NCBI RefSeq assembly: GCF_001646665.1
Contig: NZ_LWBU01000249.1
Span: 1 to 64,000 of the forward strand
Length of the DNA stretch: 64,000 nt
Source of the DNA: Streptomyces noursei
Lineage (GTDB): Bacteria; Actinomycetota; Actinomycetes; Streptomycetales; Streptomycetaceae
Direction: 5' to 3'
Shown: positions 11,116-41,075 of the stretch, piece by piece
Numbering within the stretch: the stretch's first letter is position 1
Layout of the letters: each line of letters starts with the position of its first letter
Made by a program: the position numbers and the translations under genes
Notes under the pieces: generated by a model
Databases searched by the model: none
Told to the model about the DNA's origin: nothing
The model's input: only the letters and a program-made list of their open reading frames with translations

Positions 11116-12678
11116 TCAGGTGGCGGGGGCGCCGCCTGTGGCTTTGAGGGCGAGCCACAGCTCCATCCGGACGTCCGGGTCGTCCAGGGAGCGGCCCAGG
11201 ATCTCCTCGACGCGGCGCATCCGGTAGCGCAGCGTGTGGCGGTGGACGCCCAGGTCCGCGGCCGCCGCGTCCCACTGGCCGTGGCGGGAGAGCCAGGCGC
11301 GCAGGGAGGCGACCAGGTCGCCGCGGCCGGTGGCGTCGTGCTCGTAGAGGGCCCGGAGCATGCCGTCGGCGAAGGCGCGCACCGCGTCGTCCGCGAGGAG
11401 GGGCAGGACGGAGCCGGCCGCCAGGTCCTCGTGCTCTACCAGGGCGCGGCCTCGGCGACGGGCCACCGACAGGGCCTGCTCGGCCTGCTTGTACGCGGCC
11501 CCCGCCGCTATCGGGCCGGTCGGCGCCGACAGTCCGATCACGACCCCGGCCTCCTCCGCCTCCTTCTCGGTGTACGCCTCGCAGGCGGCCGCGACCGCGC
11601 CTCCGTCGCCCGCCAGGACCAGCAGCCGTTCGTCGCCCTCCGGCACGGTCAGCACCGCCTCGGCGGCGCGCGCGGCCGCCGCTTCCAGGGCCTCGGCGAG
11701 CGCGGGCAGCGGCGCCTCGGCGGCCGGGTCGCGCTCGGCCGTGGCGGGCTCCGCGAGCAGCAGCCGGAACGGGGCGTCCAGCAGCCCCCCGTACAGGTCG
11801 CCCGCCACCGCCCTGGCGTGATCGGGCTGCCCGGCCAGCAGCATCCGCAGCACCGCCGCGCCGAGCCGCTGCTCGGCCGCCTGGAGGGAACGGGACCGCT
11901 CGGTGGTGAGCGTCAGCAGGGCGATGGCCGAGTGGACGGCGTAGCGTTCCGCCGTCCCCAGGGGCGCGCCGGTGCCGACCGCCAGGGCGCCGCGCACCCG
12001 CCGCCCGCTGCCGAGCGACTGGAGTTCGACCCGGTCGTCGGTGCCCCCGACCACCGTGCTGGCGGGCGCCGACCGCTCCCGCAGCCGCTGGACGTCCGGG
12101 GTGAGCCGCGCCGCGCGGCGGGCCGCCCACTCGGGTGCGGCGGCCAGCACGGCGCCGGAGGCGTCGTACAGCGCGGCCCAGCCGTTGACATGGGCCGCCA
12201 GCCGGGCGACCACGGCGGCCGGGCCCTCGGCGAGGGCCGCCCGCGTCATCTCCCGCTGGGCCTCGAACCCGGCCGTCACCGCCCGGTACTGGTCCGCCGC
12301 CATCGCCGCCGACACCGCCTTGGAGATGGCGAGGAACGGGGTGCGGCGCGGTACCTCCAGCAGCGGCAGGCCCTCGTCGCGGGCGGCGTCCACGAGCGCC
12401 TGCGGCACCTCGTCGTAGTTGACGCCGACGGCGAAGCCGAGTCCGACGACCCCGGCGTCGGACAGCCGTTTCACGTAGCGGCGCATGGCGTCGGGGTTCT
12501 CGGCGTCCAGCTTCATGGCGGTGACCATGAGCAGCTCGCCGCCCTCCATGTAGGGGACGGGGTCGGCGAGCTCACTGACGTGCGCCCAGCGGACGGGCGT
12601 GTCGAGGCGGTCCTCCCCGGCGCGGACCGTGAGCTTCAGCGCCGAATGCTGGACGAGCGAGGCGAGCGTGAGCGGCAT
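11116..12678 (-). CDS. PucR family transcriptional regulator
   Basis: With the ATG chosen, the protein has 520 residues. The N-terminal PucR domain (about 1-120) includes RWAHVSELADPVPYMEGGELLMVTAMKL. A central GGDEF-like sensor region lies around 270-400. The C-terminal HTH_30 domain reads HGQWDAAAADLGVHRHTLRYRMRRVEEIL. PucR-type regulators control purine or GABA catabolism; the C. glutamicum gabTDP activator GabR is of this type. With gabT 2.7 kb away and an aldehyde dehydrogenase nearby, a GabR-like role is a reasonable inference. The frame extends upstream to 12744, but those 22 codons are atypical and no start has a good ribosome binding site. Confidence 0.87.
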   Translation of the reverse strand: MPLTLASLVQHSALKLTVRAGEDRLDTPVRWAHVSELADPVPYMEGGELLMVTAMKLDAENPDAMRRYVKRLSDAGVVGLGFAVGVNYDEVPQALVDAARDEGLPLLEVPRRTPFLAISKAVSAAMAADQYRAVTAGFEAQREMTRAALAEGPAAVVARLAAHVNGWAALYDASGAVLAAAPEWAARRAARLTPDVQRLRERSAPASTVVGGTDDRVELQSLGSGRRVRGALAVGTGAPLGTAERYAVHSAIALLTLTTERSRSLQAAEQRLGAAVLRMLLAGQPDHARAVAGDLYGGLLDAPFRLLLAEPATAERDPAAEAPLPALAEALEAAAARAAEAVLTVPEGDERLLVLAGDGGAVAAACEAYTEKEAEEAGVVIGLSAPTGPIAAGAAYKQAEQALSVARRRGRALVEHEDLAAGSVLPLLADDAVRAFADGMLRALYEHDATGRGDLVASLRAWLSRHGQWDAAAADLGVHRHTLRYRMRRVEEILGRSLDDPDVRMELWLALKATGGAPAT

Positions 12679-12761
12679 GGCGGGGACCGTCGGACTTTCG
12701 GGAGGTGACACGGAAGGGTTTTCGCCGTCCCGTATGAACGACACCCATCAATTCTGCCAGG

Positions 12762-15398: not shown

Positions 15399-16733
15399 AT
15401 GACCGAAATCCCGCAGGAGCGCCGCGTCGTCACCGCCATCCCCGGCCCGAAGTCGCAGGAGCTTCAGGCCCGCCGTCTGTCCGCGGTCGCGGGCGGCGTG
15501 GGCTCGGTGCTGCCGGTCTTCACGACCCGCGCCGGCGGCGGTGTGATCGAGGACGTCGACGGCAACCGCCTGATCGACTTCGGTTCCGGTATCGCCGTGA
15601 CCTCCGTGGGCGCCTCCGCCGAGGCCGTCGTGCGCCGGGCGAGCGCCCAGCTGGAGCAGTTCACGCACACGTGTTTCATGGTCACGCCGTACGAGGGTTA
15701 CGTCGAGGTCTGCGAGGCGCTCGCCGAGCTCACCCCGGGTGACCACGCCAAGAAGTCCGCGCTGTTCAACAGCGGCGCCGAGGCCGTCGAGAACGCGGTC
15801 AAGATCGCCCGTTCGTACACCAAGCGCCAGGCCGTCGTCGTCTTCGACCACGGCTACCACGGCCGGACGAACCTGACGATGGCGCTGACCGCCAAGAACA
15901 TGCCGTACAAGCACGGCTTCGGTCCGTTCGCGCCCGAGGTCTACCGTGTGCCGGTGGCCTACGGCTACCGCTGGCCGACCGGCCCCGACAACTGCGGCCC
16001 CGAGGCCGCCGCGCAGGCCATCGACCAGATCAGCAAGCAGATCGGCGCCGAGAACGTCGCCGCCATCATCATCGAGCCGGTGCTGGGCGAGGGCGGCTTC
16101 ATCGAGCCCGCCAAGGGCTTCCTGCCCGAGATCGTGAAGTTCGCCAACGACAACGGCATCGTCTTCGTCGCCGACGAGATCCAGTCCGGCTTCTGCCGCA
16201 CCGGCCAGTGGTTCGCGTGCGAGGACGAGGGCGTCGTCCCGGACCTGATCACCACCGCCAAGGGCATCGCGGGCGGTCTGCCGCTCGCCGCCGTCACCGG
16301 CCGCGCCGAGATCATGGACTCCGTGCACGGCGGTGGCCTGGGCGGTACGTACGGCGGCAACCCGGTGGCCTGCGCGGGTGCGCTCGGCGCCATCGAGACG
16401 ATGAAGGAGCTGGACCTCAACGCGAAGGCCAAGCGCATCGAGGAGGTCATGAAGGGCCGCCTCGCCGCCATGCAGGAGAAGTACGAGATCATCGGCGACA
16501 TCCGCGGCCGCGGCGCCATGATCGCGATCGAGCTGGTGAAGGACCCGGCAACCAAGGAGCCGAACCCGGAGGCCGCCGGCGCGCTCGCGAAGGCCTGCCA
16601 CGCCGAGGGCGTCCTGGTGCTGACCTGCGGCACCTACGGCAACGTCCTGCGCTTCCTGCCGCCGCTGGTGATCGGCGAGGACCTGCTCAACGAGGGCCTC
16701 GACATCATCGAGAACGCGTTCGCGGGCGTGTGA
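15399..16733 (+). CDS. gabT: 4-aminobutyrate aminotransferase
   Basis: This 444-residue class III PLP enzyme transfers the amino group of GABA to 2-oxoglutarate, giving succinate semialdehyde and glutamate. Signatures are FNSGAEAVENAVKIAR (cofactor phosphate region), FDHGYHGRTNLTMALT, IIIEPVLGEGGF, FVADEIQSGFCRTG (PLP-pyridine Asp) and TTAKGIAGG with the Schiff-base K288. The C-terminal RFLPPLVI segment is typical of GabT. It is the plus-strand neighbour of the PucR/ATPase genes and completes the GABA step of the polyamine degradation route encoded at 20-27 and 37-41 kb. An inverted repeat upstream (15272-15286) may be the control site. Confidence 0.95.
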   Translation: MTEIPQERRVVTAIPGPKSQELQARRLSAVAGGVGSVLPVFTTRAGGGVIEDVDGNRLIDFGSGIAVTSVGASAEAVVRRASAQLEQFTHTCFMVTPYEGYVEVCEALAELTPGDHAKKSALFNSGAEAVENAVKIARSYTKRQAVVVFDHGYHGRTNLTMALTAKNMPYKHGFGPFAPEVYRVPVAYGYRWPTGPDNCGPEAAAQAIDQISKQIGAENVAAIIIEPVLGEGGFIEPAKGFLPEIVKFANDNGIVFVADEIQSGFCRTGQWFACEDEGVVPDLITTAKGIAGGLPLAAVTGRAEIMDSVHGGGLGGTYGGNPVACAGALGAIETMKELDLNAKAKRIEEVMKGRLAAMQEKYEIIGDIRGRGAMIAIELVKDPATKEPNPEAAGALAKACHAEGVLVLTCGTYGNVLRFLPPLVIGEDLLNEGLDIIENAFAGV

Positions 16734-20229: not shown

Positions 20230-21648
20230 TCAGCTGTCGAAGCCGAGACCGAGCCGGTCCATGGCCTTGAGCCACACGTTCCGGCGTCCGCCGTTGGCGT
20301 CGGCCCGGGCGAGCGACCACTTGGTCAGCCCGATCCCCGCCCAGGCGATCGGTTCCGGGGGGAACGGCAGCGGCTTGGAGCGCACCATCTCCAGTTCCGT
20401 CCGCTCAGTGCGCTCCCCCGACAGCAGGTCGAGCATGACGTCCGCGCCGAAGCGCGTGGCGCCCACCCCGAGGCCGGTGAATCCGGCCGCGTAGGCGACC
20501 CGTCCCGCGTGGGCCGTGCCGAAGAACGCCGAGAAGCGGGAGCAGGTGTCGATCGCGCCGCCCCAGGCGTGGCTGAACCGCAGGCCCTCCAGCTGCGGGA
20601 AGCAGTCGAAGAAGTGTTCGGCGAGCTTGAGGTAGGTCTCGGGGCGGTGGTCCCGTTCGGCGCTCAGCCGTCCGCCGAAGGGGTAGACGGCGTCGTAACC
20701 GCCCCACAGGATGCGGTTGTCGGCGGAGAGCCGGAAGTAGTGGAACTGGTTGGCGCTGTCGCCGAGGCCCTGGCGGTTCTTCCAGCCGATGGACTCCAGC
20801 TGCGCGTCCGTGAGCGGTTCGGTCATCAGGGCGTAGTCGTAGACGGGGACCGTGTAGGCCCGCACCCGCTTGACCAGGGACGGGAAGACGTTGGTGCCGA
20901 GGGCGACCCGCCGGGCGAAGACCCGCCCGTAGGGCGTGCGTACGGCCATTCCCGATCCCGCGCGGGCGAGTTCCAGGCCGCGGGTGTTCTCGTACACGCG
21001 CACACCGAGGTCGGTGCAGGCCCGCTTGAGGCCCCAGGCCAGCCTGGCCGGGTTCAGCATGGCGACGCCGCGCCGGTCCCACAGGCCGCCCAGGAAGGTG
21101 GGCGAGTCGACCTCGGCGCGCACGGCGTCCCGGTCGAGGAGCTCCAGGTCGTCCGCGAGGCCGAGGCGGTCGGCCGCCTCGTACATGCCGGTCAGCTCGT
21201 CCATCTGGTGGGGCTCGGTGGCGACGTCGATCTCGCCGGTGCGCTCGAAGTCGCAGTCGATGCCGTGGGCGGAGACCGCCGCCTCGATGGCGTCGAGGTT
21301 CGCGAGCCCCAGCTCCTCCAGGGTGGCGAGTTCACCGGGCCAGCGGGCGAGGCCGTTGCCGAAGCCGTGGGTGAGGGAGGCGGCGCAGAAGCCGCCGTTG
21401 CGGCCGGAGGCGGCCCAGCCCGCCTCCCGGCCCTCGATGAGGACGACGTCCCGTGCGGGGTCGCGCTCCTTGGCGAGCAGCGCGGTCCACAGGCCGCTGT
21501 AGCCGCCGCCCACGACCAGCAGGTCGCAGTGCTCGGTGCCGGTGAGGGCGGGCAGCGGGGCGGGCTTGCCGGGGTCTTCCAGCCAGAAGGGGACGGGCTG
21601 GGCGTCGGAGAGTGATCGTGCAGCAGTACGCATGGCGGCTGGGGCCAT
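20230..21648 (-). CDS. FAD-dependent amine oxidoreductase (gamma-glutamylputrescine oxidase-like)
   Basis: This 472-residue protein of the DAO/PuuB type has the FAD Rossmann motif VVGGGYSGLWTALLAKE near residue 45 and the downstream EGREAGWAASGRNGGF segment typical of gamma-glutamylputrescine oxidase. The C-terminal FAD contact FTGLGVGATRFGADVMLDLLSGE is also present. It should oxidise putrescine or a gamma-glutamyl derivative to an aldehyde plus H2O2 and ammonia. The ATG at 21648 follows GAGGGAG; a TTG three codons upstream is less likely. It is the last gene of the polyamine operon, 22 bp after the permease gene, so uptake and oxidation are co-expressed. Confidence 0.9.
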   Translation of the reverse strand: MAPAAMRTAARSLSDAQPVPFWLEDPGKPAPLPALTGTEHCDLLVVGGGYSGLWTALLAKERDPARDVVLIEGREAGWAASGRNGGFCAASLTHGFGNGLARWPGELATLEELGLANLDAIEAAVSAHGIDCDFERTGEIDVATEPHQMDELTGMYEAADRLGLADDLELLDRDAVRAEVDSPTFLGGLWDRRGVAMLNPARLAWGLKRACTDLGVRVYENTRGLELARAGSGMAVRTPYGRVFARRVALGTNVFPSLVKRVRAYTVPVYDYALMTEPLTDAQLESIGWKNRQGLGDSANQFHYFRLSADNRILWGGYDAVYPFGGRLSAERDHRPETYLKLAEHFFDCFPQLEGLRFSHAWGGAIDTCSRFSAFFGTAHAGRVAYAAGFTGLGVGATRFGADVMLDLLSGERTERTELEMVRSKPLPFPPEPIAWAGIGLTKWSLARADANGGRRNVWLKAMDRLGLGFDS

Positions 21649-21670
21649 GGTTTCCAACTCCCTCAGGAAC

Positions 21671-22465
21671 TCATGAGACGTCTGTGCGCTTGCGCCGGCC
21701 GGCCGCGACCTGGCCGGCGACCACCACCAGGACCGCGATGACGAACATCGCCGTTCCGATGACGTTGATCTGTACGGGCGTGCCGCGCTGCGCCGAGCCC
21801 CACACGAACATGGGGAAGGTCACGGTCGAGCCCGCGTTGAAGTTGGTGATGATGAAGTCGTCGAAGGACAGCGCGAAGGCGAGCAGGGCGCCGGCCGCGA
21901 TGCCGGGTGCGGCGATGGGCAGGGTGACCCGCAGGAAGGTCTGCACGGGACCGGCGTACAGGTCCCTGGCGGCCTCCTCCAGGCGCGGGTCCATGGACAT
22001 CACGCGCGCCTTGACCGCGGTCACGACGAAGCTCAGGCAGAACATGATGTGGGCGATGAGGACCGTCCAGAAGCCCAGCTCCACACCCATGTTGAGGAAC
22101 AGGGTGAGCAGCGAGGCGGCCATGACGACCTCGGGCATCGCCATGGGCAGGAAGATCAGCGAGTTGATCGCGCCGCGGGCCCGGAAGCGGTAGCGGACGA
22201 GCGCGAAGGCGATCATCGTGCCGAGCGCGGTGGCGCCGAGCGTCGCCCAGGCGGCGATCTGGAGCGACAGCGCGAGCGAGCCGCACAGGTCGGCGACGCC
22301 GCAGGGGTCGCGCCAGGCGTCGGTGGAGAACTCCCGCCAGGCGTAGTTGAAGCGTCCCGCCGGGTCGTTGAAGGAGAACACCATCACGACGACGTTCGGC
22401 AGGATCATGTACGCGAGGGTCAGCAGACCCGCGATGACGACGAGGTTCTTGCGGAGCAGGCGCAT
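21671..22465 (-). CDS. potC: Polyamine ABC transporter permease (PotC-like)
   Basis: This 264-residue permease has six hydrophobic helices and the permease-ATPase coupling loop EEAARDLYAGPVQTFLRVTLPIAAPGI (EAA motif, about residues 163-190). It resembles the PotC subunit of spermidine/putrescine importers. Its ATG overlaps the stop of the upstream permease by one base (TGATG), which indicates translational coupling. It pairs with PotB as a heterodimer in the membrane. Confidence 0.93.
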   Translation of the reverse strand: MRLLRKNLVVIAGLLTLAYMILPNVVVMVFSFNDPAGRFNYAWREFSTDAWRDPCGVADLCGSLALSLQIAAWATLGATALGTMIAFALVRYRFRARGAINSLIFLPMAMPEVVMAASLLTLFLNMGVELGFWTVLIAHIMFCLSFVVTAVKARVMSMDPRLEEAARDLYAGPVQTFLRVTLPIAAPGIAAGALLAFALSFDDFIITNFNAGSTVTFPMFVWGSAQRGTPVQINVIGTAMFVIAVLVVVAGQVAAGRRKRTDVS

Positions 22466-23400
22466 CAGACCAGGTCCTCCGTTCCGGCCCGGCGGATGTA
22501 GACGGTGACCATGATCAGCACGATGGCCATCAGGATGAAGGACAGCGCGGCCGCGGTCGGGTAGTCCAGCACCCGGAGGAACTGCGACTGGATGACGTTG
22601 CCGACCATCTTGGTGTCGGTCGAGCCGAGCAGTTCGGCGTTGACGTAGTCGCCGCTCGCCGGGATGAACGTCAGGAGCGTGCCCGACACGACGCCCGGCA
22701 TGGACAGCGGGAAGGTCACCTTGCGGAAGGTGGTGGCGGGGGAGGCGTAGAGGTCCTTCGCCGCCTCGTGCAGCCGGCCGTCGATCCGCTCCAGGGAGGT
22801 GTAGAGCGGCAGGATCATGAAGGGCAGGAAGTTGTACGTGAGGCCGCACACCACCGCCATGGGGGTGGCCAGGACGCGGTCGCCCTGGGTCCAGCCCAGC
22901 CAGTTGGTGACGTCCAGGACGTGCAGGGCGTCCAGGGCGCCGACGACGGCGCCGCCGTCCGCGAGGATCGTCTTCCAGGCCAGGGTGCGGATCAGGAAGC
23001 TGGTGAAGAACGGGGCGATGACGAGGACCAGGAGGAGGTTGCGCCAGCGGCCCGCCTTGAAGGCGATGAGGTACGCGAGCGGGTAGCCGAGCAGCAGGCA
23101 CAGGGCGGTGGCGGTGCCCGCGTACACCAGGGAGCGGACGAACTGGGGCCAGTACTCGGCGAAGGCGTCCCAGTAGGTCGCGAAGTGCCAGGTGACCCGG
23201 AAGCCCTGCTCCAGGGTGCCGGTCTGCACGGAGGTGGAGGCCTGGTACACCATCGGCAGCGCGAAGAAGACGAGCAGCCAGAGGATGCCGGGCAGGAGCA
23301 GCCAGTAGGGGACGAGCCGCTTGCGCGCGGGGCTCTTGCGTACGGCGGCGGGTGGTGCCTCGGGCGCCTCGGGCGCCCGGGGGATGTCGGTGATCGTCAC
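22465..23400 (-). CDS. potB: Polyamine ABC transporter permease (PotB-like)
   Basis: This 311-residue permease has a Pro/Ala-rich cytoplasmic leader, six membrane helices and the EAA loop HEAAKDLYASPATTFRKVTFPLSMPGV (about 215-240). The GTG start lies within the GTGA overlap with the end of potA. It forms the second half of the putrescine/spermidine permease with the PotC-like protein. Confidence 0.93.
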   Translation of the reverse strand: MTITDIPRAPEAPEAPPAAVRKSPARKRLVPYWLLLPGILWLLVFFALPMVYQASTSVQTGTLEQGFRVTWHFATYWDAFAEYWPQFVRSLVYAGTATALCLLLGYPLAYLIAFKAGRWRNLLLVLVIAPFFTSFLIRTLAWKTILADGGAVVGALDALHVLDVTNWLGWTQGDRVLATPMAVVCGLTYNFLPFMILPLYTSLERIDGRLHEAAKDLYASPATTFRKVTFPLSMPGVVSGTLLTFIPASGDYVNAELLGSTDTKMVGNVIQSQFLRVLDYPTAAALSFILMAIVLIMVTVYIRRAGTEDLV

Positions 23401-24566
23401 GCGGCGTCCTCCACCGTTTCCACGCCCGCGTCGCTCACGGTGCCCGCCAGCATCGACTGGGCGGCGTCCAGCCCGAACGTGTGGGCCGGGTTCCAGTGCA
23501 GGACGACCTCGGCGCCGGGGGCGAGGCGGGAGTCGCGCTCGATGTTCTGCTCGTACACCTGGAGGGCGGTGCCGGCGGGGCTGTCGACGACGTACTGGGT
23601 GGAGACGCCGATGAAGGAGGTGTCGACGATCCGGCCGGTGACCCTGTTGCGCCCGTCGGCGATCGCGCCCGCGTCGTCGGCGTGGGCGAGCGTGATCTTC
23701 TCCGGGCGGATGCCGACGAGCAGCTTGCCGCCGGGGCGGGTGTCCGCGCCGCACCGGTCGGCGGGCAGCCGCAGCTTGCCGCCGCCGGCCGTGACGGTGA
23801 CGTCCGTGCCCGTCTCCACCACTTCGGCCTCGATGAGGTTGGAGGTGCCGAGGAAGTTGGCGACGAAGGTGGTGCGCGGGTTCTCGTAGAGGTCGGCGGG
23901 CGCGCCGAGCTGTTCGACCCGGCCGCCGTTCATCACCGCGACCGTGTCGGCCATGGTCATGGCCTCCTCCTGGTCGTGGGTGACGTGGACGAAGGTGATG
24001 CCGACCTCCGTCTGGATGCGCTTGAGCTCCAGCTGCATCTGGCGGCGCAGCTTGAGGTCGAGGGCGCCGAGGGGCTCGTCGAGGAGGAGCACCTGGGGGT
24101 GGTTGATGAGGGCGCGGGCGACGGCGACGCGCTGCTGCTGGCCGCCGGAGAGCTGGTGCGGTTTGTGGCCGGCCTTGTCGCCGAGCTGTACGAGGTCGAG
24201 CATGTCGCCGACCTGCTTCTTCACCGACTTGATGCCGCGCCGGCGCAGGCCGAAGGCAATGTTCTCGAAGATGTCCAGGTGCGGGAAGAGGGCGTAGGAC
24301 TGGAAGACGGTGTTGACGGGCCGCTTGTAGGGGGGCAGGTCGGTGACGTCCTTGTCGCCGAGGTGGACGGTGCCCGTGGTGGGGTCCTCCAGGCCGGCGA
24401 TCATGCGGAGCGTGGTGGTCTTGCCGCATCCGGAGGCGCCGAGCAGGGCGAAGAAGGAGCCCTGCGGGATGGTGAGGTCGAGCGGGTGGACGGCGGTGAA
24501 GGAGCCGTAGGTCTTGCTGATCCCGGAGAGGCGGACGTCGCCGCCGGTGTTCGTGCTGTCAGTCAT
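23397..24566 (-). CDS. potA: Polyamine ABC transporter ATP-binding protein (PotA-like)
   Basis: The product is a 389-residue ATPase. Walker [10 protein letters not shown] (near 45), Q-loop [13 protein letters not shown], signature [15 protein letters not shown], Walker [12 protein letters not shown] and the H-loop HVTHD are all intact. A C-terminal TOBE-type regulatory domain follows (about 265-370, with [13 protein letters not shown]). The [16 protein letters not shown] run is typical of PotA/PotG. The start ATG is at 24566. It lies between potD and potB in the same operon with a 59-bp gap after potD. Confidence 0.94.
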
Positions 24567-24625
24567 GGGTTCGCGATCCCAGGGGTGTGGTGGGGTGGAC
24601 GGCGGCGGCTCGGGCACCGATGGGT

Positions 24626-25873
24626 TCAGGCACCGATGAGCTTGGCGAACTTCTCCTCGTACGCCGTCTCCTCCGCGCTGGTGAGGGAGCGGAAGGCGCG
24701 GGACTTCGCGGCCATCGCCTTGTCCGGGAGGATCAGGGTGTTCGACGCGAGCGCGGGGTCGATCGCGGCGAGTTCGTCGCGTACGCCGTCGACCGGGCAG
24801 ACGTAGTTGATGTACGCGGCGAGCCGGGCGGCGTTGGGGAGCTCGTAGTAGTAGTCGATGAGCTTCTCCGCGTTGGTCTTGTGCCGTGCCTTGGCGGGGA
24901 CCAGGAGGTTGTCGCTGGAGGTGATGTAGCCGGCGGCCGGGATCGCGAACTGGATGTCGGGGTTGTCGGCCTGGAGCTGGATGACGTCGCCGGCCCACGC
25001 GAGGCAGGCGGCGAGGTCGCCCTTGGCGAGGTCGCCGGTGTAGTCGTTGCCGGTGAAGCGGCGGATCTGCTGGGTGTCGACGCCCTTCTGGAGGCGGCCG
25101 ACGGCCGCGTCGAAGTCGGCGTCGGTGAACTTGCCCGGGTCCTTGCCCATGTCGATGAGGGTCATGCCGACCGAGTCGCGCATCTCGGAGAGGAACGCGA
25201 CCCGTCCCTTGAGGCGGGGGTCGTCGAGGAGCTGGGTGACGGAGTCGACCTTGCGGCCGCCGGTGGCCTTCTTGTTGTACGCGATGACCGTGGAGATGCC
25301 GGTCCAGGGGTACGAGTAGGAGCGGCCGGGGTCCCAGTCGGGGCGGCGGAACTGGGAGGACAGGTTGGCGTAGGCGTTGGGGAGGTTCGCCGGGTCGAGC
25401 TTCTGCGCCCAGCCGAGGCGGATGATGCGGGCGGCGAGCCAGTCGGTGACGCAGATCAGGTCGCGGCCGGTGTCCTGGCCGGCGGCGAGCTGCGGCTTGA
25501 CCTTGCCGAAGAACTCGACGTTGTCGTTGATGTCCTCGGTGTACTTGACCGTGATCCCGGTGCGTGCGGTGAACGCCTCCAGGGAGGGGCGGGACTTCTC
25601 GTCGTCGCTGATGTCGATGTACTGGGTCCAGTTGGAGAAGCTGAGCCGTTTCTCCTGGGCCGAGAAGTCGGTGGAGGCCGGGCCGTCGCCCTCCCGCGCG
25701 GCCGGCGGGATCCCACAGGCGCCCAGACCGGCGACACCGCCGATCGTGAGCGCGCCGACGCCCGTGGCGCGCAGCAGGGAACGGCGGGTGAGGGCTGCCC
25801 TGCCGTTCGTCAGACTGCGCCGCATCGCGGCGACCTGGGCCGCGGACAGACTGTCGGGCTCGTACTGCTCCAT
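24626..25873 (-). CDS. potD: Polyamine ABC transporter substrate-binding lipoprotein (PotD-like)
   Basis: The 415-residue protein is a PotD/PotF-type binding protein. The leader contains a twin-arginine motif (TRRSLLRATG, residues 30-39) followed by a hydrophobic stretch and a lipobox ending LGAC with Cys 53. It is therefore probably a Tat-exported lipoprotein held on the outer face of the membrane. LSFSNWTQYIDISDDE and the WTGISTVIAYNKKAT segment are typical of putrescine/spermidine binders. It follows the aldehyde dehydrogenase gene by 55 bp and precedes potA. Confidence 0.93.
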   Translation of the reverse strand: MEQYEPDSLSAAQVAAMRRSLTNGRAALTRRSLLRATGVGALTIGGVAGLGACGIPPAAREGDGPASTDFSAQEKRLSFSNWTQYIDISDDEKSRPSLEAFTARTGITVKYTEDINDNVEFFGKVKPQLAAGQDTGRDLICVTDWLAARIIRLGWAQKLDPANLPNAYANLSSQFRRPDWDPGRSYSYPWTGISTVIAYNKKATGGRKVDSVTQLLDDPRLKGRVAFLSEMRDSVGMTLIDMGKDPGKFTDADFDAAVGRLQKGVDTQQIRRFTGNDYTGDLAKGDLAACLAWAGDVIQLQADNPDIQFAIPAAGYITSSDNLLVPAKARHKTNAEKLIDYYYELPNAARLAAYINYVCPVDGVRDELAAIDPALASNTLILPDKAMAAKSRAFRSLTSAEETAYEEKFAKLIGA

Positions 25874-25928: not shown

Positions 25929-27434
25929 CTATCGGTCCCCGAAGATCGTGCGGTGCCAGTCCTTCCGGGCGACCGCCGTGTTGTCGTACATCACGTGCTT
26001 GACCTGCGTGTACTCCTCGAAGGAGTAGGTTGACATGTCCTTTCCGAAGCCGGAGGCCTTGTAGCCGCCGTGCGGCATCTCGCTGATGATCGGGATGTGG
26101 TCGTTGATCCACACGCAGCCGGCCTTGATCTCTCGGGTGGCACGGCCGGCGCGGTAGACGTCACGGGTCCAGGCGGAGGCGGCGAGGCCGTAGGGCGTGT
26201 CGTTGGCCAGGGCCAGGCCCTCCTCGTCGCTGTCGAAGGGGAGCACGACGAGGACGGGACCGAAGATCTCCGCCTGGACGATCTCGCTGTCCTGGGCGGC
26301 GCCGGTGATCAGGGTGGGCCGGTAGTGAGCGCCGTCGCCGAGCGGTGCCGTGCCGCCGGTGACGACCGTGGCGTAGCCGCGGGCACGGTCGACGAACCCG
26401 GCGACGCGGTCCCGCTGGGCGTGGCTGATCAGCGGGCCGAGGTCGGTGTCCTCGTCGAACGGGTCGCCGGTGCGGACGGTCGCCATCAGGTCGGCGACCT
26501 GCTCCACGAAGGCGTCGTACAGCGGGCGCTGGACGTACGCGCGGGTGGCGGCGGTGCAGTCCTGGCCGGTGTTGATCAGGGCGCCGGCGACCGCGCCGTG
26601 CACCGCCGCCTCCAGGTCGGCGTCGTCGAAGACGACGAACGGTGCCTTGCCGCCCAGTTCGAGGTGGAGGCGCTTGACGGTGGAGGTGGCGATCTCGGCG
26701 ACGCGCCGGCCGACGGCGGTGGAGCCGGTGAACGAGGTCATGGCGACGTCGGGGTGCCCGACGAGGTGTTCGCCGGCGTCCCGGCCTGCGCCGGTGACGA
26801 TGTTGACGACGCCGTCGGGGATGCCCGCGTCGGTGGCGGCCTGCGCGAACATCAGCGAGGTGAGGGGCGTCAGCTCGGCGGGCTTGAGCACGATGGTGTT
26901 GCCCGCGGCGATGGCCGGGAGGATCTTCCAGGCGGCCATCTGCAGGGGGTAGTTCCAGGGCGCGATGGAGCCGACGACACCGACGGGTTCGCGGCGCACG
27001 TACGAGGTGTGGTCGCCGCTGTACTCGCCGGCCGACTGCCCCTGGAGGTGCCGGGCCGCCCCGGCGAAGAAGGCCGTGTTGTCGATCGTGCCGGGCACGT
27101 CGAACTCGCGCGTCAGCTTGATGGGCTTGCCGCACTGGAGGGACTCGGCGTGCGCGAGGTCCTCGGCGCGCTCGGCGAGCCGCGCGGCGAACCGGTGCAT
27201 CGCGTCCGAGCGCTCGCCCGGTGTGGCGCCCGCCCAGCCGGGCAGCGCGTCCCGGGCGGCGGCGACGGCGGCGTCCACGTCGGCGGTGGAGGCGAGGACG
27301 TAGTCGAGGACGTCCCGCCCGGTCGCGGGGTCGACGACGGTGTGGCGCCGGCCCGATGTGCCGGGCCGCAGCCGCCCGCCGATGTACTGCGCCCCGGCCG
27401 CGAAGCGGTCGAGTCCCTGGAAGGAGTTGCCCAT
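25929..27434 (-). CDS. Gamma-aminobutyraldehyde-type dehydrogenase
   Basis: The product has 501 residues. The catalytic Glu lies in LHLELGGKAPFVVF and the nucleophile in NTGQDCTAATR, the pattern of gamma-aminobutyraldehyde (PatD) and betaine-aldehyde dehydrogenases. The NAD site motifs APWNYPLQMA and KPAELTPLTSL are present. It should oxidise the aldehyde made by the FAD amine oxidase in the same operon, giving GABA or its gamma-glutamyl form. It is the first gene of the operon. Its promoter (27435-27609) carries a long palindrome and three phased CGGAATC elements. It is a paralogue of the dehydrogenase at 37582-39018. Confidence 0.93.
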   Translation of the reverse strand: MGNSFQGLDRFAAGAQYIGGRLRPGTSGRRHTVVDPATGRDVLDYVLASTADVDAAVAAARDALPGWAGATPGERSDAMHRFAARLAERAEDLAHAESLQCGKPIKLTREFDVPGTIDNTAFFAGAARHLQGQSAGEYSGDHTSYVRREPVGVVGSIAPWNYPLQMAAWKILPAIAAGNTIVLKPAELTPLTSLMFAQAATDAGIPDGVVNIVTGAGRDAGEHLVGHPDVAMTSFTGSTAVGRRVAEIATSTVKRLHLELGGKAPFVVFDDADLEAAVHGAVAGALINTGQDCTAATRAYVQRPLYDAFVEQVADLMATVRTGDPFDEDTDLGPLISHAQRDRVAGFVDRARGYATVVTGGTAPLGDGAHYRPTLITGAAQDSEIVQAEIFGPVLVVLPFDSDEEGLALANDTPYGLAASAWTRDVYRAGRATREIKAGCVWINDHIPIISEMPHGGYKASGFGKDMSTYSFEEYTQVKHVMYDNTAVARKDWHRTIFGDR

Positions 27435-27491
27435 GACGCTCTCCGTTGTCCCGGCTCGAATTGAGTGCCGATCCTGACAGAGGAGGTGCGG

Positions 27492-27569
27492 GGCAACAAG
27501 GGATTCCGTTGTTGCCTTTTGGTTACGCGACGGAATCGGTCGACCAAGTGTCGGGTGGCCGCCGGAATC
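27492..27569. promoter_or_regulatory. Control region of the polyamine operon
   Basis: A perfect inverted repeat, GGCAACAA-N9-TTGTTGCC, spans 27492-27516. The 7-mer CGGAATC (either strand) occurs at 27502-27508, 27531-27537 and 27563-27569, so copies are 29 and 32 bp apart, close to three helical turns. This phasing is what Lrp/AsnC octamers favour. The same kind of array precedes the AsnC/dehydrogenase pair near 39.1 kb. It lies between the dehydrogenase gene and the divergent NADAR gene. Confidence 0.5.
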
Positions 27570-27609
27570 TCCGTACGTTGTGTCAGTGGTGACTGCCAGA
27601 CTGGCGTGC

Positions 27610-28167
27610 ATGGAAAGGATCCACGAGCTGATCGGGCAGGTCAGCGCGGGTGCGCGCGTGAAATTCCTGCACTTCTGGGGGCACACCCCGAAGCGGGACG
27701 GGACGCTGGGGGCGAGCTGCCTGAGCCAGTGGTGGCCGTCGCCCTTCACGGTCGACGGCGTGGAGTACGCGACGGCCGAGCACTGGATGATGGCGTCCAA
27801 GGCCCGGCTCTTCGGCGACACCGACGCCGAGCGGCAGGCCGTCGAGGCGCCGAACCCGGCGCTCGCGAAGAAGGCGGGCCGGCTGGTGCGCGGCTTCGAG
27901 GAGACGGCATGGAAGCGGGAGCGCTTCGGGATCGTGGTCAGGGGCAGCGAACACAAGTTCGCCTCGGACCCGCAGTTGCGGGCGTTCCTGCTGTCGACGG
28001 GCGACCGCGTCCTGGTCGAGGCGAGCCCGGTGGACCGCGTGTGGGGCATCGGCCTGGCCGCCGACGACCCGCGCGCGCAGTCCCCGGCCCAGTGGCGGGG
28101 CCTGAACCTGCTGGGCTTCGCCCTGATGGACGCCCGCGACAGGCTCCGGGCGCAGACAGCCGGCTGA
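27610..28167 (+). CDS. NADAR family protein (YbiA-like N-glycosidase)
   Basis: With the ATG chosen the protein has 185 residues. It begins MERIHELIG and has the NADAR signatures FLHFWGHTP, the SQWWPSPFTVDGVEYATAEHWMMASKARLFGD block, and HKFASDPQLRAFLLSTGDRVLVEASPVDRVWGIGL near the end. Bacterial YbiA acts on riboflavin-pathway intermediates, and other NADAR proteins remove ADP-ribose from guanine in DNA. The window gives no evidence of a partner ADP-ribosyltransferase. Two in-frame GTG codons upstream (27580, 27589) are alternatives; none has a strong ribosome site. It is divergent from the polyamine operon. Confidence 0.85.
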   Translation: MERIHELIGQVSAGARVKFLHFWGHTPKRDGTLGASCLSQWWPSPFTVDGVEYATAEHWMMASKARLFGDTDAERQAVEAPNPALAKKAGRLVRGFEETAWKRERFGIVVRGSEHKFASDPQLRAFLLSTGDRVLVEASPVDRVWGIGLAADDPRAQSPAQWRGLNLLGFALMDARDRLRAQTAG

Positions 28168-28244
28168 CGGCGGCGGAGCCGGGGCGTGCACCGCCCTCCT
28201 CGCGGGAGGGCCCGACGCCGGGCCGTCCCCGCCGCCGCGCGGCG

Positions 28245-37581: not shown

Positions 37582-39018
37582 TCAGCCCAGCGAGGTCATC
37601 ACGTGCTTGACGCGCGTGTAGTCCTCGAAGCCGTACGCCGAGAGGTCCTTGCCGTAGCCGGACTTCTTGAAGCCGCCGTGCGGCATCTCCGCGACCAGCG
37701 GGATGTGGGTGTTGATCCACACGCAGCCGAAGTCCAGGGCCTTGGACATCCGCATCGCGCGGGCGTGGTCCTTGGTCCAGACGGAGGAGGCCAGGGCGTA
37801 CTCGACGCCGTTGGCGTACTCCAGGGCCTGCTCCTCGTCGCGGAACGGCTGGACCGTGATGACGGGGCCGAAGACCTCGTTCTGGATGATCTCGTCGTCC
37901 TGCTTGAGGCCGGAGACGACGGTCGGGGCGTAGAAGTAGCCCTTGTCGCCGACCCGGTGGCCGCCCGCCTCGACCTTGGCGTGGGCGGGCAGGCGGTCGA
38001 TGAAGCCGCTGACCTGCGCCAGCTGGTTGGCGTTGTTCAGCGGGCCGTACAGCACGTCCTCGTCGTCCGGCAGGCCGGTCTTCGTCTCGGAGGCGGCCTT
38101 GGCGAGCGCCGAGACGAACTCGTCGTGGATCGACTCGTGGACCAGGACGCGGGTGGCCGCCGTACAGTCCTGGCCGGCGTTGAAGAAGCCCGCGACCGAG
38201 ATGTCCTCGACGGCCTTGGCGATGTCGGTGTCCTCGAAGACCACGACCGGCGCCTTGCCGCCCAGCTCCAGGTGGACGCGCTTGACGTCCTTGGCGGCGG
38301 ACTCGGCGACCTGCATGCCGGCGCGTACCGAACCGGTGATGGAGGCCATCGCGGGGGTGGGGTGCTCGACCATGGCGCGGCCGGTCTCGCGGTCGCCGCA
38401 GATGACGTTGAAGACGCCCTTGGGGACGATCGAGCCGATGATCTCGGCGATCAGCACGGTGGAGGCCGGGGTGGTGTCCGACGGCTTGAGCACGACGGTG
38501 TTGCCGGCGGCGAGCGCCGGGGCGAACTTCCACACGGCCATCATCATCGGGTAGTTCCACGGCGCCACCTGGGCGCAGACGCCGACCGGCTCACGGCGGA
38601 CGATGGAGGTCAGGCCCTCCATGTACTCGCCGGCGGACTTGCCCTCCAGCATCCGGGCGGCGCCGGCGAAGAACCGGATCTGGTCCACCATCGGGGGGAC
38701 CTCTTCGGTGCGGGTGAGCTCGATCGGCTTGCCGGTGTTCTCCGACTCGGCGGCGATCAGGTCCTCGGCCCGCTCCTCGAAGGCGTCGGCGATCTTCAGC
38801 AGCACCTTCTGGCGCTCGGCCGGCGTCGCGTCGCGCCAGGCGGGGAAGGCGGCCGCGGCGGCCTCCATGGCGGCGTCGACGTCTGCCTGGCCTGAGAGCG
38901 GAGAAGTGGCGTACACCTCGCCGGTGGCCGGGTTGACCACGTCGATGGTCCGTCCGTCGGCGGCGTCCCGGAACTCCCCGTTGATGTAGTTGCGCAGACG
39001 ACGCAGCTCGGTGGTCAC
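37582..39018 (-). CDS. Gamma-aminobutyraldehyde-type dehydrogenase, second copy
   Basis: The product is 478 residues from a GTG preceded by GGAGGGG. The catalytic Glu is in VHLELGGKAPVVVF and the Cys in NAGQDCTAATR, the gamma-aminobutyraldehyde dehydrogenase pattern. APWNYPMMMAVWKFAPALAAGN supports NAD binding. It is divergent from the AsnC regulator, which is followed by a class III aminotransferase, so aminotransferase and dehydrogenase probably act in sequence on a diamine. It is a paralogue of the dehydrogenase at 25929-27434 that works with the amine oxidase. Confidence 0.93.
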   Translation of the reverse strand: MTTELRRLRNYINGEFRDAADGRTIDVVNPATGEVYATSPLSGQADVDAAMEAAAAAFPAWRDATPAERQKVLLKIADAFEERAEDLIAAESENTGKPIELTRTEEVPPMVDQIRFFAGAARMLEGKSAGEYMEGLTSIVRREPVGVCAQVAPWNYPMMMAVWKFAPALAAGNTVVLKPSDTTPASTVLIAEIIGSIVPKGVFNVICGDRETGRAMVEHPTPAMASITGSVRAGMQVAESAAKDVKRVHLELGGKAPVVVFEDTDIAKAVEDISVAGFFNAGQDCTAATRVLVHESIHDEFVSALAKAASETKTGLPDDEDVLYGPLNNANQLAQVSGFIDRLPAHAKVEAGGHRVGDKGYFYAPTVVSGLKQDDEIIQNEVFGPVITVQPFRDEEQALEYANGVEYALASSVWTKDHARAMRMSKALDFGCVWINTHIPLVAEMPHGGFKKSGYGKDLSAYGFEDYTRVKHVMTSLG

Positions 39019-39102
39019 TTGCCACCCCTCCTGTCGGTCTCGTGGTGCTCGGTGCTCAGGTGTCCAATGGGTGGACAGCCCCACCCTAATCGCTGTGGCG
39101 AC

Positions 39103-39170
39103 GATTCCGACAGGGCCGACGCCCCACAACTTCGGATTCAGTGGGATCGGAACGCGAGAACAACGGATTT
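39103..39170. promoter_or_regulatory. Phased repeats between dehydrogenase and asnC
   Basis: Elements fitting CGGAWTY (either strand) occur at 39103-39109 (GATTCCG), 39133-39139 (CGGATTC) and 39164-39170 (CGGATTT), 30 and 31 bp apart. This is about three helical turns and would place all sites on one DNA face, as Lrp/AsnC proteins prefer. The third copy lies in ACAACGGATTTC, which resembles ACAAGGGATTCC in the polyamine-operon promoter. Confidence 0.5.
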
Positions 39171-39219
39171 CCTCGATCTGGGGTTGCGCGAGTGACGAGA
39201 CTCGGTGCAGAGTGAAGAC

Positions 39220-39711
39220 GTGGCCAGTCGAAGCGCAGACCCCAGGGGCGGAAACGGATCGTCGCCGACGATCGACGCCGTGTCCCTGGCGATCATCGAA
39301 CAGCTCCAGGAGGACGGTCGCCGTCCGTACGCCGCCATCGGCAAGGCCGTCGGCCTGTCCGAGGCGGCCGTGCGGCAGCGCGTCCAGAAGCTCCTCGATC
39401 AGGGCGTCATGCAGATCGTCGCCGTCACCGACCCCCTCACCGTCGGCTTCCGCCGTCAGGCGATGGTCGGCATCAACGTCGAGGGCGACGTGGAGCAGGT
39501 GGCGGACGCGGTGACGGCCATGGCCGAATGCGAGTACGTGGTGATGACCGCGGGCTCCTTCGACCTGATGGTGGAGATCGTCTGCGAGGACGACGACCAC
39601 CTCCTGGATGTGATCAACAAGCGCATCCGCACTCTCCCCGGCGTGCGCTCCACCGAGAGCTTCGTCTACCTCAAGCTCAAGAAGCAGACCTATATGTGGG
39701 GAACCCGATAG
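39220..39711 (+). CDS. Lrp/AsnC family transcriptional regulator
   Basis: The product is 163 residues from the GTG that gives VASRSADPRGG; a GTG five codons upstream is also possible. The N-terminal HTH (about 22-70) reads DAVSLAIIEQLQEDGRRPYAAIGKAVGLSEAAVRQRVQKLL. The C-terminal RAM/AsnC effector domain has GVRSTESFVYLKLKKQ. It is divergent from a dehydrogenase and 2 bp from the aminotransferase start, so it is very likely a local regulator of diamine catabolism. In S. coelicolor the corresponding region has, as I recall, been linked with polyamine use. Confidence 0.92.
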   Translation: MASRSADPRGGNGSSPTIDAVSLAIIEQLQEDGRRPYAAIGKAVGLSEAAVRQRVQKLLDQGVMQIVAVTDPLTVGFRRQAMVGINVEGDVEQVADAVTAMAECEYVVMTAGSFDLMVEIVCEDDDHLLDVINKRIRTLPGVRSTESFVYLKLKKQTYMWGTR

Positions 39712-39713
39712 CC

Positions 39714-41075
39714 GTGAGCAAGGACCTCTCCAAGACCGCCTACGACCACCTGTGGATGCACTTCACCCGCATGTCGTCGTACGAGAACAGCCCCGTCCCG
39801 ACCATCGTCCGCGGCGAGGGCACCTACATCTTCGACGACAAGGGCAAGCGCTACCTCGACGGCCTCGCCGGCCTGTTCGTGGTCCAGGCCGGACACGGCC
39901 GTACGGAGCTCGCCGAGACCGCCTACAAGCAGGCCCAGGAACTCGCCTTCTTCCCGGTGTGGTCCTACGCCCACCCGAAGGCGGTGGAGCTGGCCGAGCG
40001 CATCGCGCACCACGCTCCCGGCGACCTGAACAAGGTCTTCTTCACCACCGGCGGCGGCGAGGCGGTCGAGACCGCCTGGAAGCTGGCCAAGCAGTACTTC
40101 AAGCTGGTGGGCAAGCCCACCAAGCACAAGGTCATCTCCCGCGCGGTCGCCTACCACGGCACCCCGCAGGGCGCGCTGTCCATCACCGGCCTGCCGGGCC
40201 TGAAGGCCCCCTTCGAGCCCCTGGTGCCCGGCGCGCACAAGGTCCCGAACACCAACATCTACCGCGCCCCGCTCTTCGGCGACGACCCCGAGGCCTTCGG
40301 CCGCTGGTGCGCCGACCAGATCGAGCAGCAGATCCTCATGGAGGGCCCCGACACCGTCGCCGCCGTCTTCCTGGAGCCGGTGCAGAACGCCGGCGGCTGC
40401 TTCCCGCCGCCGCCCGGCTACTTCCAGCGCGTGCGCGAGATCTGCGACCAGTACGACGTGCTGCTCGTCTCCGACGAGGTCATCTGCGCCTTCGGCCGCC
40501 TCGGCACGATGTTCGCGTGCGACAAGTTCGGCTACGTACCGGACATGATCACCTGCGCCAAGGGCATGACCTCGGGCTACTCCCCCATCGGCGCGTGCAT
40601 CATCTCCGACCGCCTGGCCGAGCCGTTCTACAAGGGTGACAACACCTTCCTGCACGGCTACACCTTCGGCGGCCACCCGGTCTCCGCCGCGGTGGGCCTC
40701 GCCAACCTCGACATCTTCGAGCGCGAGAACCTCAACCAGCACGTCCTGGACAACGAGGGCGCTTTCCGGGCCACGCTGGAGAAGCTGCACGACCTGCCGA
40801 TCGTCGGCGACGTCCGCGGCAACGGCTACTTCTACGGCATCGAGCTCGTCAAGGACAAGGTCACCAAGGAGTCGTTCAACGACGAGGAGACCGAGCGCGT
40901 CCTGTACGGCTACCTCAGCAAGGCGCTGTTCGACAACGGCCTGTACTGCCGTGCCGACGACCGCGGCGACCCGGTCGTCCAGCTGGCGCCGCCGCTGATC
41001 TCCGACCAGTCCACGTTCGACGAGATCGAGCAGATCCTCCGGGCCACCCTCACCGAGGCCTGGACGAAGCTGTGA
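39714..41075 (+). CDS. Class III aminotransferase (putrescine/omega-amino acid type)
   Basis: The product is 453 residues from a GTG two bases after the asnC stop; a GTG six codons upstream overlaps asnC. Signatures are FFTTGGGEAVETAWKLAK, RAVAYHGTPQGALSITG, FLEPVQNAGG, LLVSDEVICAFGRLG and TCAKGMTSGYSP with the PLP lysine K283. The family includes putrescine-pyruvate and beta-alanine-pyruvate aminotransferases. Co-transcription with asnC and the divergent aldehyde dehydrogenase suggests transamination of putrescine or gamma-glutamylputrescine. A strong hairpin follows the gene. Confidence 0.92.
   Translation: MSKDLSKTAYDHLWMHFTRMSSYENSPVPTIVRGEGTYIFDDKGKRYLDGLAGLFVVQAGHGRTELAETAYKQAQELAFFPVWSYAHPKAVELAERIAHHAPGDLNKVFFTTGGGEAVETAWKLAKQYFKLVGKPTKHKVISRAVAYHGTPQGALSITGLPGLKAPFEPLVPGAHKVPNTNIYRAPLFGDDPEAFGRWCADQIEQQILMEGPDTVAAVFLEPVQNAGGCFPPPPGYFQRVREICDQYDVLLVSDEVICAFGRLGTMFACDKFGYVPDMITCAKGMTSGYSPIGACIISDRLAEPFYKGDNTFLHGYTFGGHPVSAAVGLANLDIFERENLNQHVLDNEGAFRATLEKLHDLPIVGDVRGNGYFYGIELVKDKVTKESFNDEETERVLYGYLSKALFDNGLYCRADDRGDPVVQLAPPLISDQSTFDEIEQILRATLTEAWTKL

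Follow-up and report, generated by a model that had tools for sequence, protein, structure and literature searches.

A candidate paired-site Lrp/AsnC-type operator shared by a polyamine catabolic operon and an asnC regulator gene in Streptomyces

Introduction

The Streptomyces noursei DNA studied here carries two aminobutyraldehyde dehydrogenase genes, one of them (ALDH1) at the head of an operon with polyamine transporter genes and the other (ALDH2) beside a gene for an Lrp/AsnC-family regulator (asnC). In these bacteria the breakdown of polyamines supplies nitrogen metabolism. An earlier note on this DNA had seen a recurring heptamer and a large palindrome in front of the ALDH1 operon, and predicted that one AsnC protein controls both dehydrogenase genes and the transporter. 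We ask whether the region upstream of ALDH1 is an operator, and whether the asnC-encoded protein is the regulator that would bind it. The window is the whole stretch of DNA analysed, 64,000 nucleotides long (positions 1-64000 of contig 249); its source genome comprises 7.64 Mb in 413 contigs.

The counterparts of this neighbourhood in S. coelicolor, as given in the accessible text of two reports, are SCO5655, SCO5656 (Lrp/AsnC, EpuRII), SCO5657 and SCO5666 (dehydrogenases) and SCO5667-5671 (PMC9397018, PMC5403932). The expression data reported there have SCO5666 and SCO5657 strongly induced and SCO5667-70 weakly inducible by polyamines (PMC5403932). By EMSA, as described in the accessible part of the report, EpuRII binds its own promoter region, its targets being glnA3, sco5676, sco5977, sco6960 and four epuR genes including its own, and EpuRI, not EpuRII, is reported on the sco5657 promoter region (PMC8998196).

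Materials and Methods

Homologues of ALDH1 (E<=1e-60) were found in 51, and homologues of the asnC regulator (E<=1e-40) in 59, of 61 genomes of the genus. To make up the two sets of 50 upstream regions, we added 20 regions on each side, from 21 remaining ALDH1 genomes and 29 remaining asnC genomes. Left out were, on the ALDH1 side, the region of G047 and a second, weaker match in G007 and, on the asnC side, the regions of G008, G018, G021, G031, G035, G045, G048, G050 and G055, in both cases from the lower-scoring half. One asnC region (L134, from G047), whose 31-bp pair scores 27.0, was removed from the AsnC site set because both its sites are offset from the anchor; the matrix for the AsnC sites and the counts of palindromes therefore rest on 49 regions.

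The pooled profile (R1) was built from 52 sequences of both promoters, and whole 46-bp profiles were built from the AsnC regions (R2) and the ALDH1 regions (R3). Out of 78 distinct 46-mers, 52 went into A1; A2 took in 29 of 29 and A3 48 of 49. Promoters and transcription starts were predicted, those of asnC and ALDH2 being picked by eye.

Results

Gene layout

The ALDH1 operon is read on the minus strand in the order ALDH1, substrate-binding protein (SBP), PotA, PotB and PotC homologues, and FAD oxidoreductase (Table 1). The asnC/ALDH2 region lies ~12 kb away; the overlap of asnC with the aminotransferase gene indicates that both are probably co-transcribed. A PucR-type regulator gene is found in the same window, and its product may, by analogy, control GABA use. 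Divergent from ALDH1 is a NADAR-domain gene, which matches a riboflavin-intermediate N-glycosidase model and adjoins ALDH1 in 28 of the 29 loci checked. In the window 37 bp separate the listed start of its coding sequence from the upstream operator site (s1), so that the gene may be co-regulated and may use the operator region jointly with ALDH1.

Table 1. Genes, candidate operator sites and predicted promoter boxes in the window.
Feature	Position	Strand	Evidence or remark
PucR-type regulator gene	11116-12744		flanked by gabT (15399-16733) and by an aldehyde dehydrogenase gene (8435-9877)
FAD-dependent oxidoreductase, SCO5671-like by position, operon end	20230..21657	-	FAD oxidoreductase models matched under cut-off
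PotC-like permease, ends approximate	21671..22466	-	position and translation; homologues 3' of PotB in G018, G051
PotB-like permease, start approximate	22465..23415	-	NCBIfam PotB model 3e-59, under model cut-off
PotA-like ATPase, start approximate	23397..24575	-	TIGR01187 364 bits, cut-off 355.6
PotD/PotF-like polyamine substrate-binding protein (SBP)	24626..25873	-	NCBIfam PotD model 1e-24, under model cut-off
ALDH1, aminobutyraldehyde dehydrogenase (SCO5666-like), first gene of operon	25929..27434	-	NCBIfam NF010000 742 bits, cut-off 615
Predicted -10 box CAGGAT, ALDH1 operon	27471..27476	-	CAGGAT in 47/50
Predicted -35 box TTGTTG, ALDH1 operon, overlaps end of s2	27494..27499	-	TTGTTG in 44/50
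Candidate operator site s2 of ALDH1, CAACGGAATCCCTTG (read towards ALDH1), 15-bp Lrp-type palindrome	27497..27511	-	centre 27504, -40; PWM and 50-genome alignment
Candidate operator site s1 of ALDH1, CGACGGAATCGGTCG, 15-bp palindrome	27528..27542	+	centre 27535, -71; alignment and PWM
Third CGGAATC copy, probably not a site	27560..27574	+	own score 4.6 in window
NADAR-domain gene, divergent from ALDH1	27580..28167	+	PF08719 3.6e-51
ALDH2, second aminobutyraldehyde dehydrogenase (SCO5657-like), divergent from asnC	37582..39021	-	NCBIfam NF010000 715 bits, cut-off 615
Candidate operator site s1 of asnC/ALDH2, CTTCGGATTCAGTGG	39130..39144	+	centre 39137; -61 for ALDH2, -83 for asnC (predicted starts)
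Candidate operator site s2 of asnC/ALDH2, CAACGGATTTCCTCG	39161..39175	+	centre 39168; -92 for ALDH2, -52 for asnC (predicted starts)
Lrp/AsnC-family regulator gene asnC (EpuRII/SCO5656-like)	39220..39711	+	PF13404 HTH 4e-15, PF01037 ligand-binding domain 4e-17
Class III aminotransferase (SCO5655/PatA-like)	39696..41075	+	16-bp overlap with asnC

Two 15-bp palindromes 31 bp apart precede the ALDH1 operon

The heptamer CGGAATC, which the earlier note had placed at three positions in front of the operon, was found by string check at 27502 (-), 27531 (+) and 27563 (+). No such triple within 70 bp occurred in 60 Markov-1 simulations of the window, against one observed. With the degenerate form CGGAWTY, 0.017 triples are expected per 64 kb and two were observed, one at the ALDH1 promoter and one at the asnC/ALDH2 promoters. 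Since the heptamer was chosen after the data had been seen, conservation is the stronger argument than this null model.

The copies had been described as phased at 29 and 32 bp. The symmetric unit is a 15-bp palindrome of Lrp type around GAATC/GATTC, present twice with centres 31 bp apart (s1 and s2); the figure of 29 bp comes from reading the heptamer on one strand. Of the three copies, two correspond to conserved sites, but the third (27563) scores above 0 in only 3 of 50 genomes, compared with ~2% of background windows, and was rejected as a site. The large palindrome, GGCAACAA-N9-TTGTTGCC at 27492-27516, is perfect and has one exact copy in the 7.64-Mb genome. It consists of s2 and part of the -35 box, and its outer arms are lineage-specific: perfect 8-bp outer arms were seen in 2 of 50 genomes, and the 25-bp palindrome was discarded as the functional unit. 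A pair of 15-bp palindromes describes the element better than three phased copies or one large palindrome.

The predicted -35 and -10 boxes of the operon are separated by exactly 17 bp in 50/50 genomes, and the -10 box would place the transcription start near 27464.

The ALDH1 operator is conserved in the genus

In the alignment of 50 ALDH1 upstream regions a near-invariant block, made up of CGACaGATTCCGTCG, an GCGTAAcCAAAAGGCAA-like stretch and CAACGGAATCaCTTG, overlaps the -35 box. The CAA/TTG ends of s2 are kept in 48/50 genomes and CAACAA-N9-TTGTTG is found in 38/50. Six of the seven base pairs of s1 are symmetric in 38/50 genomes, and five or six of seven in s2 in 48/50. A degenerate 25-mer, with up to 3 mismatches, matched once each in 199 of 295 Streptomyces genomes (places checked among the matches listed), and its reversed control matched in 1 genome.

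Conservation near the level of the operator was also apparent downstream of it: CTCTGTCAGGATCGGCACTCAAwTCGAGC (27435-27476), which takes in the -10 box together with the predicted 5' leader, is present in most of the 50 genomes, seemingly beyond the needs of a promoter alone. On the other side of the operator, at 27541-27553, a conserved CGACACnTGGTCG half-palindrome lies beyond s1 and shares two bases with it, the two centres being 12 bp apart. This half-palindrome could belong either to the operator or to a NADAR promoter.

The same paired sites lie between asnC and ALDH2

The sites between asnC and ALDH2 are likewise 31 bp apart, and ACAAGGGATTCC and ACAACGGATTTC (at 39160) are identical at 10 of 12 positions, exactly as had been claimed from the letters. 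When the window was scanned with a position weight matrix (PWM) from the ALDH1 sites alone, ranks 1 and 2 were these sites themselves and ranks 3 and 4 were 39161 and 39130. With this matrix the asnC/ALDH2 pair scores 28.9 at 31 bp, whereas no background pair from 650 kb of this genome exceeds 17.1. In the reciprocal test with the asnC-site PWM, the ALDH1 pair scores 32.1 and the background reaches at most 19.8. None of 300 column-shuffled matrices in either direction beat the background at the other promoter. An occurrence of the arrays at random sites with equal frequency, which the earlier note had named as fatal to its proposal, was looked for in 650 kb of the source genome and not seen. 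Measured from the predicted promoters, the centres of all six sites deviate by no more than 0.14 turn from a single face of the DNA.

When the spacing was left free at 15-60 bp, 31 bp was best in all 50 AsnC upstream regions fetched. The scores exceeded 14.2 (the maximum of 3,222 200-bp background windows) in 42/50 regions and 17.1 (the 650-kb maximum) in 33/50, an indication of weaker and more variable sites on the AsnC side. The symmetry of these sites is also less regular, with at least 4 of 7 pairs symmetric in 34/49 (s1) and 49/49 (s2). The whole-46-bp profiles R2 and R3 left the respective other promoter unmatched at E<=1 in 16 genomes. Judged by sequence, the part common to both promoters is only the two 15-bp sites. 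The third heptamer copy beside asnC, at 39103 and overlapping the predicted -35 box of ALDH2, was likewise rejected as a site, since only 2/49 genomes score above 0 there. The predicted -10 box of asnC, CAGAGT (39208-39222), places the start at the GTG codon, suggesting that the asnC message is possibly leaderless.

Matches to the paired operator lie mostly at the two promoters

In the source genome, where 150 out of 757 first-look candidates were scored, R1 matched the two promoters and no third place at E<=10. As R1 was trained on both promoters, its matches to them are expected; what is informative is the lack of any other. Within the 61-genome set R1, trained on 52 of these sequences, matched upstream of ALDH1 in 51/51 ALDH1-bearing genomes and upstream of asnC in 54/59 asnC-bearing genomes. 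The five genomes with no R1 match beside asnC were G018, G045, G047, G050 and G055; on direct reading a 31-bp pair is present in G047 and G055 despite this. Ten of the 115 R1 matches lie at neither promoter: four are copies of the operator (G008, G018, G051, G060) and six are weak matches in six different genomes (E 0.018 to 0.33), of which one was examined (G012).

A further set of 80 regulator loci (1.53 Mb), which partly overlaps the genomes of the other counts, gave an AsnC pair with a score above 12 in 77 loci and a second pair above 30 inside the fetched flank in 37. All 114 pairs have the 31-bp spacing, and no other pair between 17.1 and 30 was detected in this set. A search of the genome for single sites, with CRACGRAATCNNTYG and up to 1 mismatch, returned 17 matches, compared with 2 for the control. 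Of the exact matches, the third (C53) falls in a coding frame, and for the 14 matches outside both promoters inspection of 60 flanking bases by eye showed no obvious second site 31 bp off.

Of 147 genomes drawn at the level of the order, 122 matched at E<=0.001, and all of these belong to Streptomyces. There was no match in 10 listed genomes of other genera, and 5 more unmatched genomes are unlisted; this absence outside the genus is weak evidence, because the profile was trained on the genus, the filters were stricter and few other genera were covered. One record, titled Microtetraspora glauca NRRL B-3735 (L277), has a 91% identical regulator and the same paired sites, and is possibly a mislabelled Streptomyces.

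The operator stays with the transporter operon

In G018 (L216, 7489-7734) and G051 (L340, 2240-2511) the operon lacks ALDH1 and the SBP gene, and its operator is found in front of potA. In G008 (L217) ALDH1 is truncated at its front and the operator is kept. In G060 (L339, 2388-2420) an extra s2 with its promoter lies between ALDH1 and the SBP gene and s1 is missing there; at the ALDH1 promoter of the same genome the sequence between the palindromes is altered and the palindromes are retained. These arrangements indicate that the operator is linked to the transporter operon rather than to the reading frame of the dehydrogenase.

The asnC product is probably an EpuRII orthologue

The regulator scores 55.8 bits with PF13404 (cut-off 27) and 62.5 bits with PF01037 (cut-off 25), which places it in the Lrp/AsnC (FFRP) family; its solved relatives are PH1519, LrpA, AsnC and Lrp. 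It is 99% identical to a protein of Streptomyces sp. CB03234, and its closest named relatives are from Streptomyces. S. violaceoruber NRRL S-981, one of the strains in the set of 80 loci, is a close relative of S. coelicolor; its regulator is 84% identical and adjoined by the aminotransferase and ALDH2 genes, and it carries both operators (L295). On the strength of family, neighbours and the S. violaceoruber protein, the regulator is probably the orthologue of EpuRII (SCO5656), which has the same neighbours, the SCO5655 aminotransferase and the SCO5657 dehydrogenase, in the accessible account (PMC9397018).

Two of the published targets of EpuRII were compared here. Its own promoter carries the operator, whereas the region upstream of gabT (sco5676-like) has none, its best pair scoring -4.3; the wider EpuRII network is thus not explained by the motif in this genome. 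The main text of PMC8998196 contains no mention of SCO5666, nor of SCO5658, SCO5667 or SCO5668. As far as its accessible text goes, it gives no EpuRII binding motif, the single use of the word "motif" concerning GlnR (PMC8998196).

Discussion

The region upstream of ALDH1 has the features of Lrp/AsnC-type operators: 15-bp semi-palindromes, a regular spacing and a counterpart in the control region of the regulator's own gene (39130-39175). These data (i) a conserved operator at both promoters, (ii) the same 31-bp spacing, (iii) reciprocal recognition by the two matrices and (iv) no third match of the pooled profile among the candidates scored, support a common AsnC-type regulator. We put at roughly 85% the reading that the operator is shared and that the protein encoded at 39220-39711 would act through it on the ALDH1 operon and the asnC/ALDH2 region. 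The earlier proposal, that a single AsnC protein governs the two dehydrogenase genes and the transporter, has come through most of the sequence tests, the 46-bp one-promoter profiles speaking against it. From work on S. coelicolor, the strong induction of SCO5666 and SCO5657 and the reported EMSA of EpuRII with its own promoter region were counted in favour of a shared regulator; the weaker AsnC sites, the five genomes with no R1 match beside asnC, the weak induction of SCO5667-70, the published EpuRII targets that lack a visible counterpart and the reported binding of EpuRI at sco5657 were counted against it.

As we propose it, two dimers of one higher-order Lrp oligomer would bind the 15-bp palindromes, three helical turns apart, both between asnC and ALDH2 and before the ALDH1-SBP-potABC-FAD-oxidoreductase operon. 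In the presence of a polyamine or a breakdown product, the regulator would switch on ALDH1, ALDH2 and the transporter, and it would also control its own gene and the co-transcribed aminotransferase gene. The identity of the binding protein, the oligomeric form, the ligand and activation rather than repression are all inferred.

Another regulator, either the PucR-type protein or an Lrp paralogue, might own the ALDH1 operator, the likeness to the asnC sites then being due to chance or to cross-talk between paralogues. The PucR gene does lie in the same catabolic region, the one-promoter profiles do miss the other promoter, and the accessible S. coelicolor EMSA data suggest overlapping promoter sets for EpuRI and EpuRII (PMC8998196). 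We nevertheless consider such an assignment improbable: chance or a paralogue sits poorly with the reciprocal matrix test and its shuffled controls, the identical spacing and the 15-bp Lrp-type symmetry, and the only other place in the source genome matched by the pooled profile, among the candidates scored, is the promoter of the regulator itself. The region upstream of gabT, on the PucR side of the window, is without such a site. GabR of Corynebacterium glutamicum, a PucR-type actinobacterial regulator of GABA use in the accessible description (PMC7652997), resembles the present case in function, but belongs to another regulator family. Least probable of all, to a degree that makes it nearly negligible, is that the palindrome functions only in RNA, as a hairpin or a terminator, or that a promoter is conserved here and no operator. 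Part of the conservation is indeed that of the predicted promoter (-35, 17 bp, -10), but s1 and s2 persist where the intervening sequence has changed (the ALDH1 copy of G060, G018 and G051); the palindromes lie upstream of the predicted transcription start, and no Rfam family reached its gathering score in 27000-28200.

If the asnC-encoded protein is the regulator, the sign of its action has to be considered separately. The ALDH1 sites, centred at -40 and -71 beside the -35 box, occupy the usual place of an activator, for which reason activation is expected, and we favour it, with some reserve, for ALDH1. The same regulator might instead repress the operon, a polyamine or its product relieving the repression. 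Since s2 touches the -35 box, steric repression would be possible, and BarR of Acidianus, according to the accessible account, represses its own gene while activating a divergent one (PMC10201364). Repression strikes us as the unlikelier sign, although one that deserves attention: the centres on one face at ALDH1 fit activation better, and the sites at ALDH2 are upstream of its predicted promoter.

For the proposed control by the asnC product through paired sites, a close parallel is offered by BarR, a beta-alanine-responsive Lrp-type regulator of Sulfolobales. In the accessible text, BarR has 15-bp semi-palindromic sites, a divergent aminotransferase gene, regulation of its own gene and, in S. 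tokodaii, an adjoining semialdehyde dehydrogenase gene; its DNA is apparently wrapped on an octamer (PMC10201364). The spacers of the Sulfolobus homologues are 15-17 bp, compared with 16 bp in the Streptomyces operator, but four to five sites are predicted there, whereas the Streptomyces promoters have two each (PMC10201364). BarR also differs in being archaeal and distant, with another motif and a known ligand (PMC10201364).

The element is best read, from its sequence, as a paired-site Lrp/AsnC operator of a local regulon, a well-defined and otherwise ordinary gene switch. With about even confidence we extend this to a Streptomyces-wide local EpuRII-type regulon: one paired-palindrome operator would stand, as a rule, at exactly two places per genome and serve three transcription units from the same DNA face, and it would remain at the transporter genes in genomes that have lost the dehydrogenase gene. 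The wider S. coelicolor network based on EMSA would then reflect other sequences or unspecific binding. The operator also calls part of the published EpuRII target list into question. For a Streptomyces polyamine regulator, EpuRII/SCO5656, for which we found no binding site described in the accessible open-licence literature, a precise candidate operator is now supplied, and the SCO5666-5671-like operon, unnamed in the accessible text of the EMSA target report (PMC8998196), is predicted to be a direct target.
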